43,475 nucleotides of DNA, taken from assembly GCA_001823875.1 (NCBI GenBank), contig MHVX01000028.1, positions 1-43,475 of the forward strand, given 5' to 3'. A program made the translations under genes and the position numbers. Shown here one piece after another: positions 28,691 through 35,841 of the stretch (positions within the stretch are counted from its first letter, which is position 1; each line of letters opens with the position of its first letter). Below the pieces are notes generated by a model. That model was not told the origin of the DNA. It saw nothing but the letters and a program-made list of their open reading frames with translations, and ran no database searches. This DNA comes from Candidatus Zambryskibacteria bacterium RIFCSPHIGHO2_12_FULL_43_12b. Lineage in GTDB: Bacteria > Patescibacteriota > Minisyncoccia > Phycocordibacterales > Zambryskibacteraceae.

Positions 28691-31600
28691 ATGTCGTTTA
28701 GCCACTTACACGTTCACTCCCACTACAGCTTGCTTAATGCCCTGCCTAAGATTCCCGACCTAATTGAAGCGGCAAGAAAGGATGGGATGTCGGCACTGGC
28801 TCTCACTGACAATGGCAACTTATATGGAGCAATTGAATTTTATAAAGATTGTCAAAAAGCCGGAATAAAGCCAATCATCGGAGTTGACGCGTACGTAGCT
28901 CAAAGAGGGCGCGCGGATAAGCAAGCAGGCGTAGATAACAACAGATACAGGCTTGTGCTTCTTGCTAAAAACGAAGTCGGATACAAAAATTTAATTAAGA
29001 TAGTTACCATCTCTCATTTTGAAGGCTTTTACTACAAACCGCGAATTGACAAAGAACTCATTGAGAGATTCCATGAAGGGCTTATAGCTATTTCTTCGTC
29101 ATTTGCAGGAGAAATTGCCCGAACTCTGCTCGGATCGGAGAGCGCAAAAGCGGAAGAAGCGGCTCTTTGGTACAAACAAGTTTTTGGTGACGATTTATAT
29201 ATTGAAATTTCAATTCATCCGGAAATCACCGGGCACAACGAACGAATGCAGGCGCTTTCACGGTTTGCGAGAGAGAATAACATCAAGACCGTGGCGGCAC
29301 ATGATGTTTATTATATTAGTCCTGAAGACAAGCCCGCAAGAGACACTCTCCTTTCTGTTCAAACAAACCCCGAGAGAGACAGAGGTGGGTGGAATGACGG
29401 AGAAGAAGATTTTTCTTTCATAAACCAAGCGAAGGCGAATGAATACTTCAAAGAATTTCCTGAAGCGTTGGAAAACGTGCAAGAAGTCGTGGATAAATGC
29501 AATCTGACATTAAGTCTTGGCTCGTGGGTATTTCCCGATTTTAAAATACCAGCAGGCACAACTCACGATGAAGAACTCAAAAGAGTGGTATATGAAGGAC
29601 TTTCAAAAAGAGGGCTTAAGAAGACAAAAGAGGTTGAAGAGCGTATTGAATATGAGCTTAAGATTATTAAAAACAAAGGATATTCCCCCTACTTTTTGGT
29701 GATGGCGGACCTTATTAGATATGCCAGAGAAAACAAAATCCTTACAAATACTAGAGGATCCGTGGCGGGCTCCATAGTGTCTTACCTGACCTTCATAACC
29801 ACCGTTGACCCGATTGACTACAAACTCCCATTTGAGAGATTCCTGAACCCAGAAAGGCCGAGCGCGCCAGATATTGACTTAGACATTGCTGACAACAGGC
29901 GTGATGAAATGATTGACTATGCGCGGAAAAAATATGGCGAGGACAAAGTTGCTCAAATTGGAACATTTGGGACGATGCTTGCTCGCGGGGTTGTGCGAGA
30001 CGTTGCCAGAGCGCTCGGATACCCCTATGCACTCGGAGACAGGATTGCCAAACTCATTCCATTTGGTTCGCAAGGCTTCCCCATGTCTATAGATCGCGCG
30101 TTTGAGCTGGTATCAGAACTCAAGGAGATGTACAGCGCAGATTCCGATGTCAGAAAGATTATTGATCTAGGAAAAAAGATTGAAGGTTGCGCCCGGCACA
30201 TCTCCGTGCACGCTGCCGGAGTGGTGATATCACCCGAGCCTCTCACAAACTATGTACCGCTTCAGTTTGACCCGAAAGGTGAAGGAAAAATAATCACTCA
30301 ATACGATATGTATGCGATTGAAGATGCGGGTCTGCTCAAATTTGATTTCCTCGGCATAAAAAATTTGGCCATTATCGCAGACACTCTTCACAGAGTGGAA
30401 GCTATTGAAAACAAAATTATTGATATTGACAACATTCCTCTTGATGACAAAAGCACCTTTAAGCTTCTTGCCCGAGGCGAGACTGAAGGCCTCTTTCAGC
30501 TCAATGGCGACGGAATGACTAAATTTCTGGTAGATCTCAAGCCCACTTCTATCCACGACATTAATGCCATGGTGGCTCTCTACCGTCCGGGACCGATGGA
30601 AGTGATTCCAGAATATATAAAGAGAAAAAATAATCCAAAACTAATTTCCTACATTGATCCACGAATGGAAAAATTTCTGAAGGAATCATACGGCCTCATC
30701 GTCTATCAGGATGACCTCTTGTTCTCTGCCATAGAGCTTGCAGGATACAGCTGGCTTGAAGCAGACAAATTCAGAAAGGCTGTTGGAAAAAAGATTCCAG
30801 CGGAAATGGCCGCTCAGAAGGAAAAATTCATTGAAGGTGTGGTAAAAAACGGACAGACAAAGAAATTTGCCGAAGATTTGTGGCGACTCTTTGAGCCGTT
30901 CCAAGCATACGGTTTCAACAAAGCCCATGCCGCAAGCTACGGCCGTGTGGCCTACCAAACTGCCTACTTGAAGGCCAACTTCCCTGCAATATACATGTCT
31001 GCCGTGATGACTGCCGAGTCCGGGAATATTGAAAAAATTGGGGAAATGGTGGTGGAATGCAAGCGTATGGGTATTCCCGTGCTTCCTCCGTCTGTAAATG
31101 AAAGTTACCAGGGATTTTCGGTAGTAAGAAAGCAAGGTGAGCCAGACACAATCCGCTTTGGATTGACGACTGTAAAAAATTTCGGAGAAGGAATCGCCAA
31201 TTCAATTGTGAAGGAGCGCAAAACAAATGGAAAATTCAAATCACTCGCTGATTTTATAGACAGGATCAAAGACAGAAATCTCAACAAGAAATCTCTTGAA
31301 GCTTTGATCAAGTGTGGGGCGTTAGACGAATTCGGCGAGAGAGGCGTCATGATGGCAAATATAGACCTTTTGCTTGAATACCATAAGGAGAGAATGAAGG
31401 ACGCAAGCAATCAAGACTCTCTATTCACTTCCGCTCTGGGAACACAAGTGCCTTCCCTCTCACTTCCACCGGCCCCAGAAGCCACAATGGAAGAAAAACT
31501 TCTCTGGGAAAAGGAACTTCTTGGTCTATTTATTTCTGGCCATCCTCTTGATAAACACAAAGAAAAGCTAGAAAAATTGGATTTGAGCATTGCAAAAATC

Positions 31601-31864
31601 AAATCTGGATCATCCAAAAAGAGCGACGTGATGGTGGTTGGAATTGTGGACGCTGTAAGAGAAGTGATTACAAAAAACAATGAGCCAATGCTTTTCATCA
31701 CAGTTTCCGACTACACTGGCAGTATTGAAAGCGTGGTATTCCCCAGCACTTATCAGAAACTCAAAGACATCCTCAAACTGGACGCATGTGTGGCTATAGT
31801 TGGCAAGCTTTCCAAGAGAAATGACGAAATCTCCTTAATAGCAGAAAAGGCTAAGCTCTGCTAA
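28691..31864 (+). CDS. dnaE: DNA polymerase III subunit alpha
   Basis: Replicative polymerase. The N-terminal PHP domain starts FSHLHVHSHYSLLNALPKI with its metal-type histidines intact. The polymerase core carries TRGSVAGSIVSYLT and the catalytic PDIDLDIAD, then FGFNKAHAASYGRVAYQTAYLKANFP-type sequence (QAYGFNKAHAASYG) at the thumb/fingers. A helix-hairpin-helix and an OB-fold region occupy the last 250 residues (MVVGIVDAVREVITKNNEPMLF). At 1057 aa it is slightly shorter than E. coli DnaE (1160). It is the DnaE1 type rather than PolC, as no exonuclease domain is inserted. Confidence 0.97.
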   Translation: MSFSHLHVHSHYSLLNALPKIPDLIEAARKDGMSALALTDNGNLYGAIEFYKDCQKAGIKPIIGVDAYVAQRGRADKQAGVDNNRYRLVLLAKNEVGYKNLIKIVTISHFEGFYYKPRIDKELIERFHEGLIAISSSFAGEIARTLLGSESAKAEEAALWYKQVFGDDLYIEISIHPEITGHNERMQALSRFARENNIKTVAAHDVYYISPEDKPARDTLLSVQTNPERDRGGWNDGEEDFSFINQAKANEYFKEFPEALENVQEVVDKCNLTLSLGSWVFPDFKIPAGTTHDEELKRVVYEGLSKRGLKKTKEVEERIEYELKIIKNKGYSPYFLVMADLIRYARENKILTNTRGSVAGSIVSYLTFITTVDPIDYKLPFERFLNPERPSAPDIDLDIADNRRDEMIDYARKKYGEDKVAQIGTFGTMLARGVVRDVARALGYPYALGDRIAKLIPFGSQGFPMSIDRAFELVSELKEMYSADSDVRKIIDLGKKIEGCARHISVHAAGVVISPEPLTNYVPLQFDPKGEGKIITQYDMYAIEDAGLLKFDFLGIKNLAIIADTLHRVEAIENKIIDIDNIPLDDKSTFKLLARGETEGLFQLNGDGMTKFLVDLKPTSIHDINAMVALYRPGPMEVIPEYIKRKNNPKLISYIDPRMEKFLKESYGLIVYQDDLLFSAIELAGYSWLEADKFRKAVGKKIPAEMAAQKEKFIEGVVKNGQTKKFAEDLWRLFEPFQAYGFNKAHAASYGRVAYQTAYLKANFPAIYMSAVMTAESGNIEKIGEMVVECKRMGIPVLPPSVNESYQGFSVVRKQGEPDTIRFGLTTVKNFGEGIANSIVKERKTNGKFKSLADFIDRIKDRNLNKKSLEALIKCGALDEFGERGVMMANIDLLLEYHKERMKDASNQDSLFTSALGTQVPSLSLPPAPEATMEEKLLWEKELLGLFISGHPLDKHKEKLEKLDLSIAKIKSGSSKKSDVMVVGIVDAVREVITKNNEPMLFITVSDYTGSIESVVFPSTYQKLKDILKLDACVAIVGKLSKRNDEISLIAEKAKLC

Positions 31865-31871
31865 ATGTGAA

Positions 31872-31900
31872 TTGACACTATAGCCAGCGCAATATAGGAT
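31872..31900 (+). promoter_or_regulatory. Promoter of the thrS T-box leader
   Basis: A consensus TTGACA (31872-31877), exactly 17 nt, then TAGGAT (31895-31900). It begins eight bases after the dnaE stop codon. Predicted transcription start is near 31907, just before the first leader helix. Confidence 0.7.
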
Positions 31901-31906
31901 TAAATT

Positions 31907-32078
31907 GACAAGAAGATTGCTGTGGCGACCAACCACAGTCCCGAAACGGAGCGAGAGCCTAATTCTTGGATTAAATGAGTGCCCTGAGCGTAGTCGAAGG
32001 GAAACTAGGTGGAACCGCGATAATTCGCCCTAGTAAATTCGCAACTTTGATTGCGCATTTACTAGGGCGTTTTAAATT
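31907..32078 (+). ncRNA. T-box riboswitch (threonine) with an unusually short stem I
   Basis: tRNA-sensing leader controlling thrS. The T-box itself is AGGTGGAACCGCG (32007-32019). The antiterminator folds as ACTAGG, a UGGAACC bulge, GCGA-TAAU-UCGC, and CCTAGT (32004-32035). The competing terminator is CGCCCTAGTAAATTCGCAA (32026-32044) pairing with 32051-32069 with one mismatch, followed by TTTT. Upstream, CTGTGG-CGACCAA-CCACAG (31920-31938) is a hairpin whose loop shows the threonine codon ACC. CCG-AAA-CGG (31941-31949) and a CCCT/AGGG stem (31982-32001) follow. CAAGAA (31909-31914) can pair with TTCTTG (31963-31968). In known T-boxes, uncharged tRNA pairs with the codon and the UGGN bulge to block the terminator. 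The whole leader is about 170 nt, shorter than the usual 200-300. Confidence 0.87.
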
Positions 32079-32084
32079 AAAACT

Positions 32085-33314
32085 ATGGCAGACGACAGAG
32101 ATCATAAAAAACTTGGAAAGGAGCTTGAGATATTCACCTTTTCAGATACAGTGGGCAAAGGTCTGCCTCTTTGGTTGCCTAAAGGTGCAACTATAAGACG
32201 GGAACTGGAACGCTTCATTGTCGATGAAGAAATTCGACGAGGTTACCTTCATGTACGAACTCCAGACATTGCCAAGTTGGAACTCTATAAAAAGTCAGGT
32301 CACTATCCATACTACAAAGATAGTATGTATGCACCGATTGTAATTGACGATGAGGAGTTTATGCTTCGTCCCATGACCTGCCCTCATCATTTTGAGCTTT
32401 ATCTTTCAAAACCAAGAAGCTACAGGGATTTACCTATGCGTATTGCTGAGCTTGCCCAGCTCTACCGCTACGAACAATCAGGAGAGCTGATGGGGCTTCA
32501 AAGGGTGAGAGCGTTTTGTCTTTCTGATGCGCACATAATTTGTGTAGACGAAGCGCAAGCAGTAGAGGAAATGGGAAAAGCTCTTGATTTGATTGAGTAT
32601 GTAAATAAAGTTTTTCACCTTGAATACGGGAAGGACTTTAGATACCGACTTTCTCTTGGAGATAGGAACAATACTGAAAAATATTTTAAAGATGATGCTG
32701 GATGGGACAAAGCAGAAAAACTCCTGCGTGAACTCATGGAAAAACGCAAAGCAGAGTTTGAAGAGGCAAAGGATGAGGCCGCATTCTATGGCCCAAAGAT
32801 TGATGTGCAGATGAAAAATGTGAATGGAAAGGAGGACACGGCTTTTACAGTGCAATACGACCTTTCTTCATCACATCGATTTGATCTTAACTACACAGGA
32901 GAAGACGGAAAGGCCCACAAGGCTTTTGTGGTGCATCGTTCATCAATTGGTGCAATAGAGCGCATTGTTGCATTTCTCATTGAAAAATATGCAGGAGCAT
33001 TCCCCCTTTGGCTCTCCCCTGTTCAGGCAAAGATACTGCCAATTGGCGAAGCGCACTTAGACTTTGCCAAAAAAATATTTGAAAATCTCAAGGAAAATAA
33101 TATTCGCGCAGAACTAGATGACAGCAGTGAAAACCTTGGCAAGAAAATCCGCAGTGCGAAAGTAGAAAAAGTTCCCTACACTATTGTCATTGGCGACAAG
33201 GAAGTTGAAGCAAATATGATAACCCTAGAATCCCGCGATTCTGGCAATCTTGGACAAATATCTCCTGAGGAACTGTTATCTAAACTCAAAGAAGAAATAT
33301 CTGCAAAGAGGTAG
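32085..33314 (+). CDS. thrS: Short threonyl-tRNA synthetase without TGS and editing domains
   Basis: Charges tRNA-Thr. The protein (409 aa versus about 640) consists only of the class II catalytic domain (1 to about 305) and the C-terminal anticodon-binding domain (about 306-409). The catalytic zinc ligands are present: Cys99 in RPMTCPHH, His150 in SDAHII, and His284 in VVHRSS. Motif 2 is YRYEQSGELMGLQRVRAF and motif 3 is SSIGAIERIVAFLIEKY. The N-terminal TGS domain and the N2 editing domain that clears Ser-tRNA-Thr are absent. The intact T-box directly upstream shows this is the true gene start and not decay. The ATG has no clear Shine-Dalgarno sequence. Confidence 0.95.
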   Translation: MADDRDHKKLGKELEIFTFSDTVGKGLPLWLPKGATIRRELERFIVDEEIRRGYLHVRTPDIAKLELYKKSGHYPYYKDSMYAPIVIDDEEFMLRPMTCPHHFELYLSKPRSYRDLPMRIAELAQLYRYEQSGELMGLQRVRAFCLSDAHIICVDEAQAVEEMGKALDLIEYVNKVFHLEYGKDFRYRLSLGDRNNTEKYFKDDAGWDKAEKLLRELMEKRKAEFEEAKDEAAFYGPKIDVQMKNVNGKEDTAFTVQYDLSSSHRFDLNYTGEDGKAHKAFVVHRSSIGAIERIVAFLIEKYAGAFPLWLSPVQAKILPIGEAHLDFAKKIFENLKENNIRAELDDSSENLGKKIRSAKVEKVPYTIVIGDKEVEANMITLESRDSGNLGQISPEELLSKLKEEISAKR

Positions 33315-33798: not shown

Positions 33799-35841
33799 CT
33801 AGATATCTAACCTCGCCATTTTGGCATTTGACTGTATGAAAGACTTTCGTGCTGGAACATCCGTACCCATAAGAATATCAAACACTTTATCCGCTTCTTG
33901 AGCATCATCTACATTTACTTGCTTAAGTATTCTTTTAGCTGGATCCATAGTAGTCTCCCAGAGTTCATCCGAATTCATTTCTCCAAGACCTTTGTATCTC
34001 TGAATTGATACTTTTGCTGTTTTAGTCTTAACTTCAACATCCTCAGCTTCTTCTCCAACTGATTCAGATTCTGTTTCAATTAATTCCTCACCCACCTCTT
34101 CCTTCCCCACAATCTTATGTTTTTCTTCATCCGAGTACGCATAGAAAACCTCTTTGCCTTTTTTTATCTTATAAAGAGGCGGTTGAGCAATATAAACATG
34201 TCCTGCATCAATTAACGGTCGGAAAAATCTATAAAGCAACGTGAGAAGGAGAGTGCGAATATGCGCACCATCCACATCGGCATCTGTAGCGATAATAATT
34301 TTGTGATAACGAAGCTTTTCAATATCAAATGTATCGCCTATTGCAGTGCCTAGAGCTACCACTAAGTTCTTGATTTGCTCAGAACCGAGCATTTTATCGA
34401 GTCTCGCTCTCTCAATATTAAGAATTTTTCCGCGAAGCGGGAGTATAGCCTGTGTGCGTCTGTCTCTACCCATTTTAGCGGTACCACCTGCCGAATCTCC
34501 CTCCACAATAAATAGCTCTGATTCTTCTGCAGACTTTGACTGACAATCTGCAAGTTTCCCTGGGAGTGTCATTCCCTCTAGAGCGCCTTTGCGGAGCACG
34601 GAATCTTTAGCGGCTTTGGCAGCCTTGCGAGCTTTTAGGGCCAAAATAACCTTATTCACCATAGCCCTAGCATCATCAGGATTTTCCTCTAAAAAGGCTT
34701 CAAAAGCCTCTCCAAAGACGCTTTCCACCATTCCTCGAGCTTCCACAGTGCCGAGCTTGGCTTTTGTCTGCCCTTCAAACTGCACCTCTCGGAGCTTGAC
34801 TGAAATAACAGCTGTCAGGCCTTCTTGAACATCTTCTCCAGTAAAACCGTCTTCGCTATCTTTTGTATAGCCATTTTTCTTAGCATAAGTATTCAAAGTC
34901 CTAGTGAGAGAGGTTTTAAAACCTGTTACGTGCGTTCCACCTTCAGGATTGTAAATATTGTTTGCAAATGGCACTACGCGGGATGAGATGTCATCTACAT
35001 ATTGGAGCGCAACTTCTACAGATTCGTACTCATTTGTCTTCTTCTCAATATAGAAAATATTTTTGTGAATTGGCTTTTGTGTCTGATTGTAAAACTTAAC
35101 AAGAGAAAGTAATCCTCCTTCGAAATAAAACGTAACTGATGGAATATCCAGACCAAGGTCCGCTAGATAAAATGACTCATCATCAATCTTTCCTTTATAC
35201 TCTCGCGCATCGAGGACGACAATTCTCAAACCTTTCACCAAATATGCCTGCTGTCGCAAGTGATTTACAACTCTACTGAATTCAAAATTGATTTCTGGAA
35301 AAATTTCTCCGTCTGGCTCAAACGTAACAATCGTTCCGTTCAATTTTGACGCCTCAACCTTTTTTACAGCAGCTTTTCTCTTCCCTTTGGCATACTCCTG
35401 CATATACTTTCCTCCGTCACGATGCACCTCCGCTTTCATGTAAAGTGACAAAGCATTCACAACTGAAGCTCCCACTCCATGAAGCCCTCCTGAAACTTTA
35501 TACCCCTCCCCGCCAAACTTTCCTCCGGCGTGAAGCGTGGTCATAATTGTTTCCAAAGCAGAAACTTTTGTCTGCTTATGAATGTCCACTGGAATACCTC
35601 TTCCGTTATCAGCTACACGAATGCGGTTGCCAGGGAGAAGCGCCACTTCAATATGATTGGCGAAACCTCCCATCGCTTCGTCGCGAGAGTTGTCAAAGAC
35701 TTCCCAAATCAAATGATGCAGTCCGTCAGGACCTGTGGTACCAATATACATTCCAGGGCGTCTGCGGACAGGGTCCAGCCCTTCAAGGACAGTAATATCC
35801 TCGGCGCTATATTTAGATTTTTTTATTTTTTCATCAGCCAT
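33799..35841 (-). CDS. gyrB: DNA gyrase subunit B
   Basis: ATPase subunit of gyrase, which introduces negative supercoils. The GHKL ATPase domain carries WEVFDNSRDEAM, ADNGRGIPVD and GGLHGVGASVVNAL. The transducer domain follows. The TOPRIM domain has LFIVEGDSAGGTAKMGRDR, LRGKILNIERAR and IIATDADVDGAHIRTLLLT, and the C-terminus ends with RYKGLGEMNSDELWETTMD and MARLDI. An acidic, Glu-rich insertion of about 30 residues (EEVGEELIETESESVGEEAE) lies just before RYKGLG. Length is 680 aa. ParE is the alternative, but no parC or gyrA is in the window to decide. No clear promoter is seen within 15 bases; a GGCCT/AGGCC inverted repeat lies about 15 bases upstream of the ATG. Confidence 0.93.
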   Translation of the reverse strand: MADEKIKKSKYSAEDITVLEGLDPVRRRPGMYIGTTGPDGLHHLIWEVFDNSRDEAMGGFANHIEVALLPGNRIRVADNGRGIPVDIHKQTKVSALETIMTTLHAGGKFGGEGYKVSGGLHGVGASVVNALSLYMKAEVHRDGGKYMQEYAKGKRKAAVKKVEASKLNGTIVTFEPDGEIFPEINFEFSRVVNHLRQQAYLVKGLRIVVLDAREYKGKIDDESFYLADLGLDIPSVTFYFEGGLLSLVKFYNQTQKPIHKNIFYIEKKTNEYESVEVALQYVDDISSRVVPFANNIYNPEGGTHVTGFKTSLTRTLNTYAKKNGYTKDSEDGFTGEDVQEGLTAVISVKLREVQFEGQTKAKLGTVEARGMVESVFGEAFEAFLEENPDDARAMVNKVILALKARKAAKAAKDSVLRKGALEGMTLPGKLADCQSKSAEESELFIVEGDSAGGTAKMGRDRRTQAILPLRGKILNIERARLDKMLGSEQIKNLVVALGTAIGDTFDIEKLRYHKIIIATDADVDGAHIRTLLLTLLYRFFRPLIDAGHVYIAQPPLYKIKKGKEVFYAYSDEEKHKIVGKEEVGEELIETESESVGEEAEDVEVKTKTAKVSIQRYKGLGEMNSDELWETTMDPAKRILKQVNVDDAQEADKVFDILMGTDVPARKSFIQSNAKMARLDI

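Follow-up and report, generated by a model that had tools for sequence, protein, structure and literature searches.

A predicted miniature transcriptional T-box riboswitch upstream of thrS in Candidatus Zambryskibacteria and other CPR bacteria

The thrS leader of Candidatus Zambryskibacteria bacterium RIFCSPHIGHO2_12_FULL_43_12b is very probably a T-box riboswitch that attenuates transcription and has tRNA-Thr(GGU) as its ligand. Judged from the sequences, it has the T-box elements and their covariation, the agreement of the specifier codon with the downstream gene and of the bulge with the tRNA discriminator base, and two mutually exclusive hairpins. T-boxes of this general kind are already known; the reduced architecture, combined with a terminator, appears to be new.

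The locus and the leader

The window (the whole 43,475-nt stretch analysed, contig C28 of a 588-kb genome that is 96% complete) carries the leader between dnaE (28691-31864, upstream) and thrS (32085-33314, + strand), which encodes a 409-aa threonine--tRNA ligase (TIGR00418, 490.6 bits, cut-off 383.65); gyrB (33799-35841) comes next after thrS on the opposite strand. The closest ThrRS relatives are from Parcubacteria, Paceibacterota or Zambryskibacteria, and so the assignment to a CPR-type genome, made earlier in a sequence-only reading of the window, holds. The window ThrRS comprises just a catalytic and an anticodon-binding domain, without TGS or editing domain, and long versions (about 580-650 aa) are also present in the window's family of genomes.

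A sigma-70-type promoter (TTGACA 31872-31877, 17 nt, TAGGAT 31895-31900, + strand) lies just upstream of the leader; it had been noted before together with the antiterminator and the UGGA bulge, and all three are present. The sensor, about 60 nt in size, is closed by the base helix P0 (CAAGAA 31909-31914 with UUCUUG 31963-31968, + strand), which encloses the specifier hairpin and two short hairpins, making a junction. The conserved GAUUG linker (31915-31919) leads from P0 to the specifier hairpin P1 (31920-31938), where CUGUGG (31920-31925) and CCACAG (31933-31938) form 6 bp around the 7-nt loop CGACCAA (31926-31932), with the Thr codon ACC (31928-31930) followed by A31931. The last linker base, G31919, pairs with C31959, and this G-C pair is changed to C-G at locus L072. 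Two predicted mini-hairpins, UCC-CGAAAC-GGA and GC-GAGA-GC, occupy 31939-31958; similar ones of varying length occur in many, not all, homologues. The 6-bp hairpin with its ACC-bearing loop had been described from the sequence as a very short stem I and the only candidate for one; the short hairpin is found and covaries, but it is not the sole one, since P0 is a second covarying helix and closes the junction.

After 8 nt, P0 is followed by GAGUG (31977-31981), stem III (CCCU..AGGG) and AAA (32002-32004), together at 31977-32004 on the + strand. This arrangement matches the purine string RRRxG-stem III-AA (PMC7583486) and is kept in most homologues, while the leaders L169, L172, L175 and L178 are seemingly without even stem III. 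The stem III sequence, CCCTGAGCGTAGTCGAAGGG (31982-32001), resembles hairpin sequences of other genomes, for instance near L054. The stem III hairpin CCCUGAGCGUAGUCGAAGGG was also considered as a dispersed genome repeat, which was rejected, as it has a single copy in the genome.

The antiterminator (32005-32033, + strand) consists of helix A1 (CUAGG/CCUAG), the T-box bulge UGGAACC (32010-32016, of the form UGGNACC) and helix A2 (GCGA/UCGC). The terminal pair of A2 is G-C in the window, where a G-U pair has been described as the aminoacyl sensor; G-U is found in about half of the family. The intrinsic terminator hairpin (32026-32069, with its U tract to 32073, + strand) has its 5' arm in common with the antiterminator. 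It had been read as a near-perfect 19-bp helix; the competing terminator is there, but its helix has 13 + 5 bp, interrupted by a single mismatch (about -27 kcal/mol), and is followed by UUUU.

Covariation across thrS leaders

We compared 74 thrS loci from named genomes, 15 of them with a leader of the window's kind, and aligned the 16 leaders (window and 15 relatives) by MAFFT without structure. Over the 22 named pairs, 94.9% of the cells were paired as standard, and sliding the partner by 1-3 columns cut the pairing to 30-51%. Double changes were detected in 16 of the 22 pairs (shuffle mean 7.5; 0/500 shuffles as high), including all 5 counted pairs of P0, 5/6 pairs of P1 and 3/5 pairs of A1, in which all pairs are standard in 16/16 leaders. 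The covariation expected for CTGTGG/CCACAG and for the antiterminator in related thrS leaders was thus found, and the proposal of a T-box upstream of thrS agrees with the bulge, the antiterminator, the Thr codon and the covarying helices in these 16 leaders.

A covariance model of the Thr-type leaders (R1) was used to find more leaders, giving an alignment of 28, in which 21/22 pairs covary, P1 with 6/6, the alignment being fitted to the covariance model and therefore biased towards it. RNAalifold, unaided, recovers the specifier hairpin, stem III and the antiterminator; P0 is absent from its consensus of the leaders, and so P0 is taken from the pair counts. In these sequence comparisons, all proposed helices among the 22 named pairs covary. 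Related thrS leaders devoid of both T-box sequence and terminator had been named as evidence that would count against the riboswitch; several close relatives indeed lack a T-box at thrS, a patchy occurrence that answers in part to this objection.

Folding, output and proposed mechanism

The antiterminator and terminator are mutually exclusive in the computed folds, with the common arm 32026-32033. Folded without the 3' arm of the terminator, the leader forms P0 and P1 together with the two mini-hairpins and the antiterminator, while the whole leader folds into the terminator (z = -3.7 vs shuffles). When the antiterminator is imposed on the complete leader, the energy is -52.8 vs -55.7, a penalty of about 3 kcal/mol, which in this folding model is plausibly a margin that a ligand could bridge.

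In each of the 28 Thr-type leaders a strong hairpin overlaps or adjoins the antiterminator 3' arm. It averages -27 kcal/mol, with a mean z of -7.6 relative to mononucleotide shuffles, and on average about six T are found in the next eight bases; by automatic reading, the hairpin is weaker or displaced in L090, L095 and L176. We infer from the recurrence of the strong hairpin and T-rich tail that the output is likely termination, not sequestration, in line with the earlier suggestion of a transcription terminator in place of a sequestrator.

By analogy with known T-boxes, tRNA binding, a charging-dependent switch and termination would work as follows. Transcription would start at about 31907, and the RNA would fold as a compact junction, offering ACC to the anticodon in the apical 7-nt loop. 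The UCCA end of an uncharged tRNA would pair with the UGGA of the bulge and hold the antiterminator, so that thrS is transcribed; with charged tRNA, the terminator would form and transcription would end ahead of thrS. Several features speak against this mechanism: the U tract of the window is short (UUUU, then AAA), the A2 terminal pair is G-C, the RF00230 score is far under the gathering score, and the elbow-binding stem I and stem II/IIA-B are missing.

The best surviving alternative, although improbable, is translational action as in the actinobacterial ultrashort T-boxes, which is consistent with the specifier in an apical loop and with a hairpin that ends 15 nt before the start codon and could also hinder ribosomes. 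Against translational action, the competing hairpin is a terminator with a U-rich tail in nearly all of the 28 leaders, stem II and IIA/B are not recognisable, and the window has no visible Shine-Dalgarno sequence for the hairpin to hide, the terminator and U-rich tail standing in the place of a sequestrator.

Comparison with known T-box classes

Attenuation by a T-box of the ordinary kind, with a long stem I overlooked further upstream, was weighed against the Rfam model and the promoter position. At the gathering threshold, the Rfam search of the window matched only a tRNA. On the leader, RF00230 scores 30.1 bits (E 7e-5 for a 600-nt search), where the gathering score is 93, and its alignment runs over the full model length (31812-32035), as a long stem I would have it. 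However, the 5' half of this match lies in the dnaE coding sequence and the promoter, and so only the 3' part is meaningful. In most homologous leaders the spacing between the -35/-10-like boxes and the base helix is roughly constant, and in most the boxes stop about 14 nt ahead of GAUUG, which puts the likely transcript start at P0 or immediately ahead of it and leaves no room for a further stem I. A hidden long stem I is accordingly very unlikely. Between the transcript start and the P0 3' strand we detected only the 6-bp hairpin and the two mini-hairpins, and no distal stem I/IDTM; the apparent absence of the elbow-contacting part had also been noted from the sequence at the outset.

Stem I is considered obligate and stem II optional; a long stem I that includes the elbow-binding IDTM is generally required in transcriptional T-boxes, and stem II turns essential once stem I is truncated. 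For tRNA affinity, the elbow-binding stem I is important in transcriptional T-boxes and stem II-IIA/B in ultrashort ones (PMC7583486). No stem II with S-turn and no IIA/B pseudoknot (F-box) was recognisable in the window, where the 8 nt between P0 and GAGUG leave no room for them. Of the Thr leaders, 4/44 contain the F-box-like CCGUNA, and of the Ile leaders 16/23. An S-turn may be hidden in the mini-hairpins.

The leader shares with the transcriptional class I T-boxes (RF00230) the UGGNACC bulge in a two-helix antiterminator, the RRRxG-stem III-AA string, the competing intrinsic terminator and the site upstream of an aminoacyl-tRNA synthetase gene, whereas it differs by the absence of distal stem I/IDTM and of a recognisable stem II and IIA/B and by its score (30 vs 93 bits). 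The likeness to the actinobacterial ultrashort class II (translational, e.g. ileS), proposed in the sequence-only reading, stands for the absence of an elbow-binding part and for a short hairpin with the codon in its apical loop. It fails for the stem II S-turn and IIA/B pseudoknot, which are essential there (PMC7583486, PMC10651847) and missing here; moreover, the CPR leader has a terminator rather than a Shine-Dalgarno sequestrator, is related to Thr and not Ile, and holds its specifier hairpin inside a multi-helix junction.

The glyQS T-boxes share with the CPR leader the absence of the stem II domain, but unlike it they retain stem I at full length, elbow-binding module included. With no distal stem I and no recognisable stem II/IIA-B, the leader is set apart from both the canonical and the ultrashort classes. 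As a guess, the missing tRNA contacts may be made up for by the junction that P0 closes and by its mini-hairpins.

Codon and discriminator specificity

The specifier codon is ACC in 15/16 thrS leaders and ACG in L077, a synonymous Thr codon swap. The loop is NNACCAA in nearly all leaders, and Thr codons are found in the loops of further leaders of the 28-leader set too. These loops also bear on a tRNA mimic bound by ThrRS, as at the thrS operator of E. coli. A hairpin upstream of thrS that resembles an anticodon arm, with 7 nt in its loop, would suit the mimic, but this loop displays a codon (ACC, ACG) rather than an anticodon, and downstream of it stand the T-box bulge and antiterminator in full, making the mimic hardly credible. 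A leader-peptide attenuator, for which a terminator and an alternative hairpin are present, is practically dismissed by the finding of no reading frame with a Thr codon run in the leader.

For the preferred T-box, the UGGA of the bulge (32010-32013, + strand) is the predicted partner of the tRNA-Thr 3' end UCCA. The genome has three tRNA-Thr genes (UGU, CGU, GGU), all with U73, which complements the A of UGGA, and most other tRNAs of the genome carry a different base, usually A. A tRNA-Thr(UGU) gene with encoded CCA lies on the window contig (43128-43200, - strand).

Among the leaders fetched across the class, the bulge base tracks the downstream gene: A for Thr (41/44), T for Ile (22/23), A for Gly (15/16) and C for Asp (9/11). 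The discriminator bases of tRNA-Ile and tRNA-Asp are A73 and G73. Discriminator pairing predicts the bulge bases found for Thr, Ile and Asp, the three covered by this comparison. When cognate codons in hairpin loops were tabulated automatically, the matrix was clear for Thr and Ile and noisy for Gly and Asp, and for this reason the Gly and Asp assignments are based on the bulge base and hand-read loops.

Distribution in CPR bacteria

The T-box was first thought to be exceptional in this group, which proved wrong: RF00230 at E <= 0.01 gives weak matches in 82 of the 384 genomes of the class, the best with 81.3 bits and none reaching the cut-off. A lone oddity of this genome was rejected as well, since matches occur in many class and phylum genomes. 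The R1 model matches in 39/384 genomes of the class and 25/380 across the phylum; some of the phylum matches, L196-L199, are thrS leaders from families that do not belong to the class, and their loop is CUACCAA. NCBIfam confirmed thrS, glyS, ileS, aspS, serS and trpE, among others, as downstream genes. The RF00230 gathering score of 93 leaves out every T-box candidate in the 384 class genomes, and the Rfam threshold thus conceals most or all T-boxes of this group.

We lean towards the broader proposal that CPR bacteria use distinct, widespread miniature transcriptional T-boxes without elbow-binding distal stem I and stem II/IIA-B. The only hold on the tRNA would then come from its codon-anticodon and NCCA contacts and from a compact junction in the Thr type, or from a single hairpin in the extreme Gly type. 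If true, a natural transcriptional T-box with neither long stem I nor stem II would be a minimal tRNA sensor, small enough for direct tests, and would provide a regulatory mechanism for CPR bacteria, a group in which very little is known of gene regulation. In the open-access full-text literature, the scope of our search, as distinct from subscription papers and preprints, we found no description of T-boxes in CPR. TBDB confined its search for class II members to Actinobacteria and used RF00230 to find those of class I, and CPR T-boxes would therefore be easily missed.

In the window's own family, among the short-type thrS genes, besides the window only G004 (L006 = L063) has a T-box; other short-type thrS genes of this family adjoin dnaE with a short gap. 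On a ThrRS tree of 71 sequences, 19 with a T-box, 12 label changes were counted vs 17.0 in shuffles (2/500 as low), two of the 19 labels (L120 and L126) being weaker R1 matches with 30.1 and 17.4 bits. From this tree, the thrS T-box is patchy and clustered, pointing to repeated loss and/or transfer.

Other genes show further variants. The glyS leaders L184, L186, L189, L190, L213 and L242 have, some 100 nt ahead of TGGAACC, one short hairpin with GGC in the loop (e.g. GAAGG-GAUUGGCU-CCUUC). Stem III, the antiterminator and the terminator come next, again without stem II; these are possibly the smallest T-boxes seen. The ileS leaders (L033, L036, L038, L050, L224 and others) have an ultrashort stem I with AUC in the apical loop and terminator ends, many with a IIA/B-like CCGUUA, as in the actinobacterial class. 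T-boxes upstream of aspS (L042, L048, L221, L251, L255) have the loop GAC and the bulge UGGC, and more were found at trpE/trpB (L043, L047, L266), serS (L039) and a ProRS-like gene (L203). At L271, a PemK/MazF-like toxin gene (L271:316-790; Pfam PF02452, E 1.3e-8) lies between the T-box terminator and thrS, a position that would bring the toxin under tRNA-Thr control.
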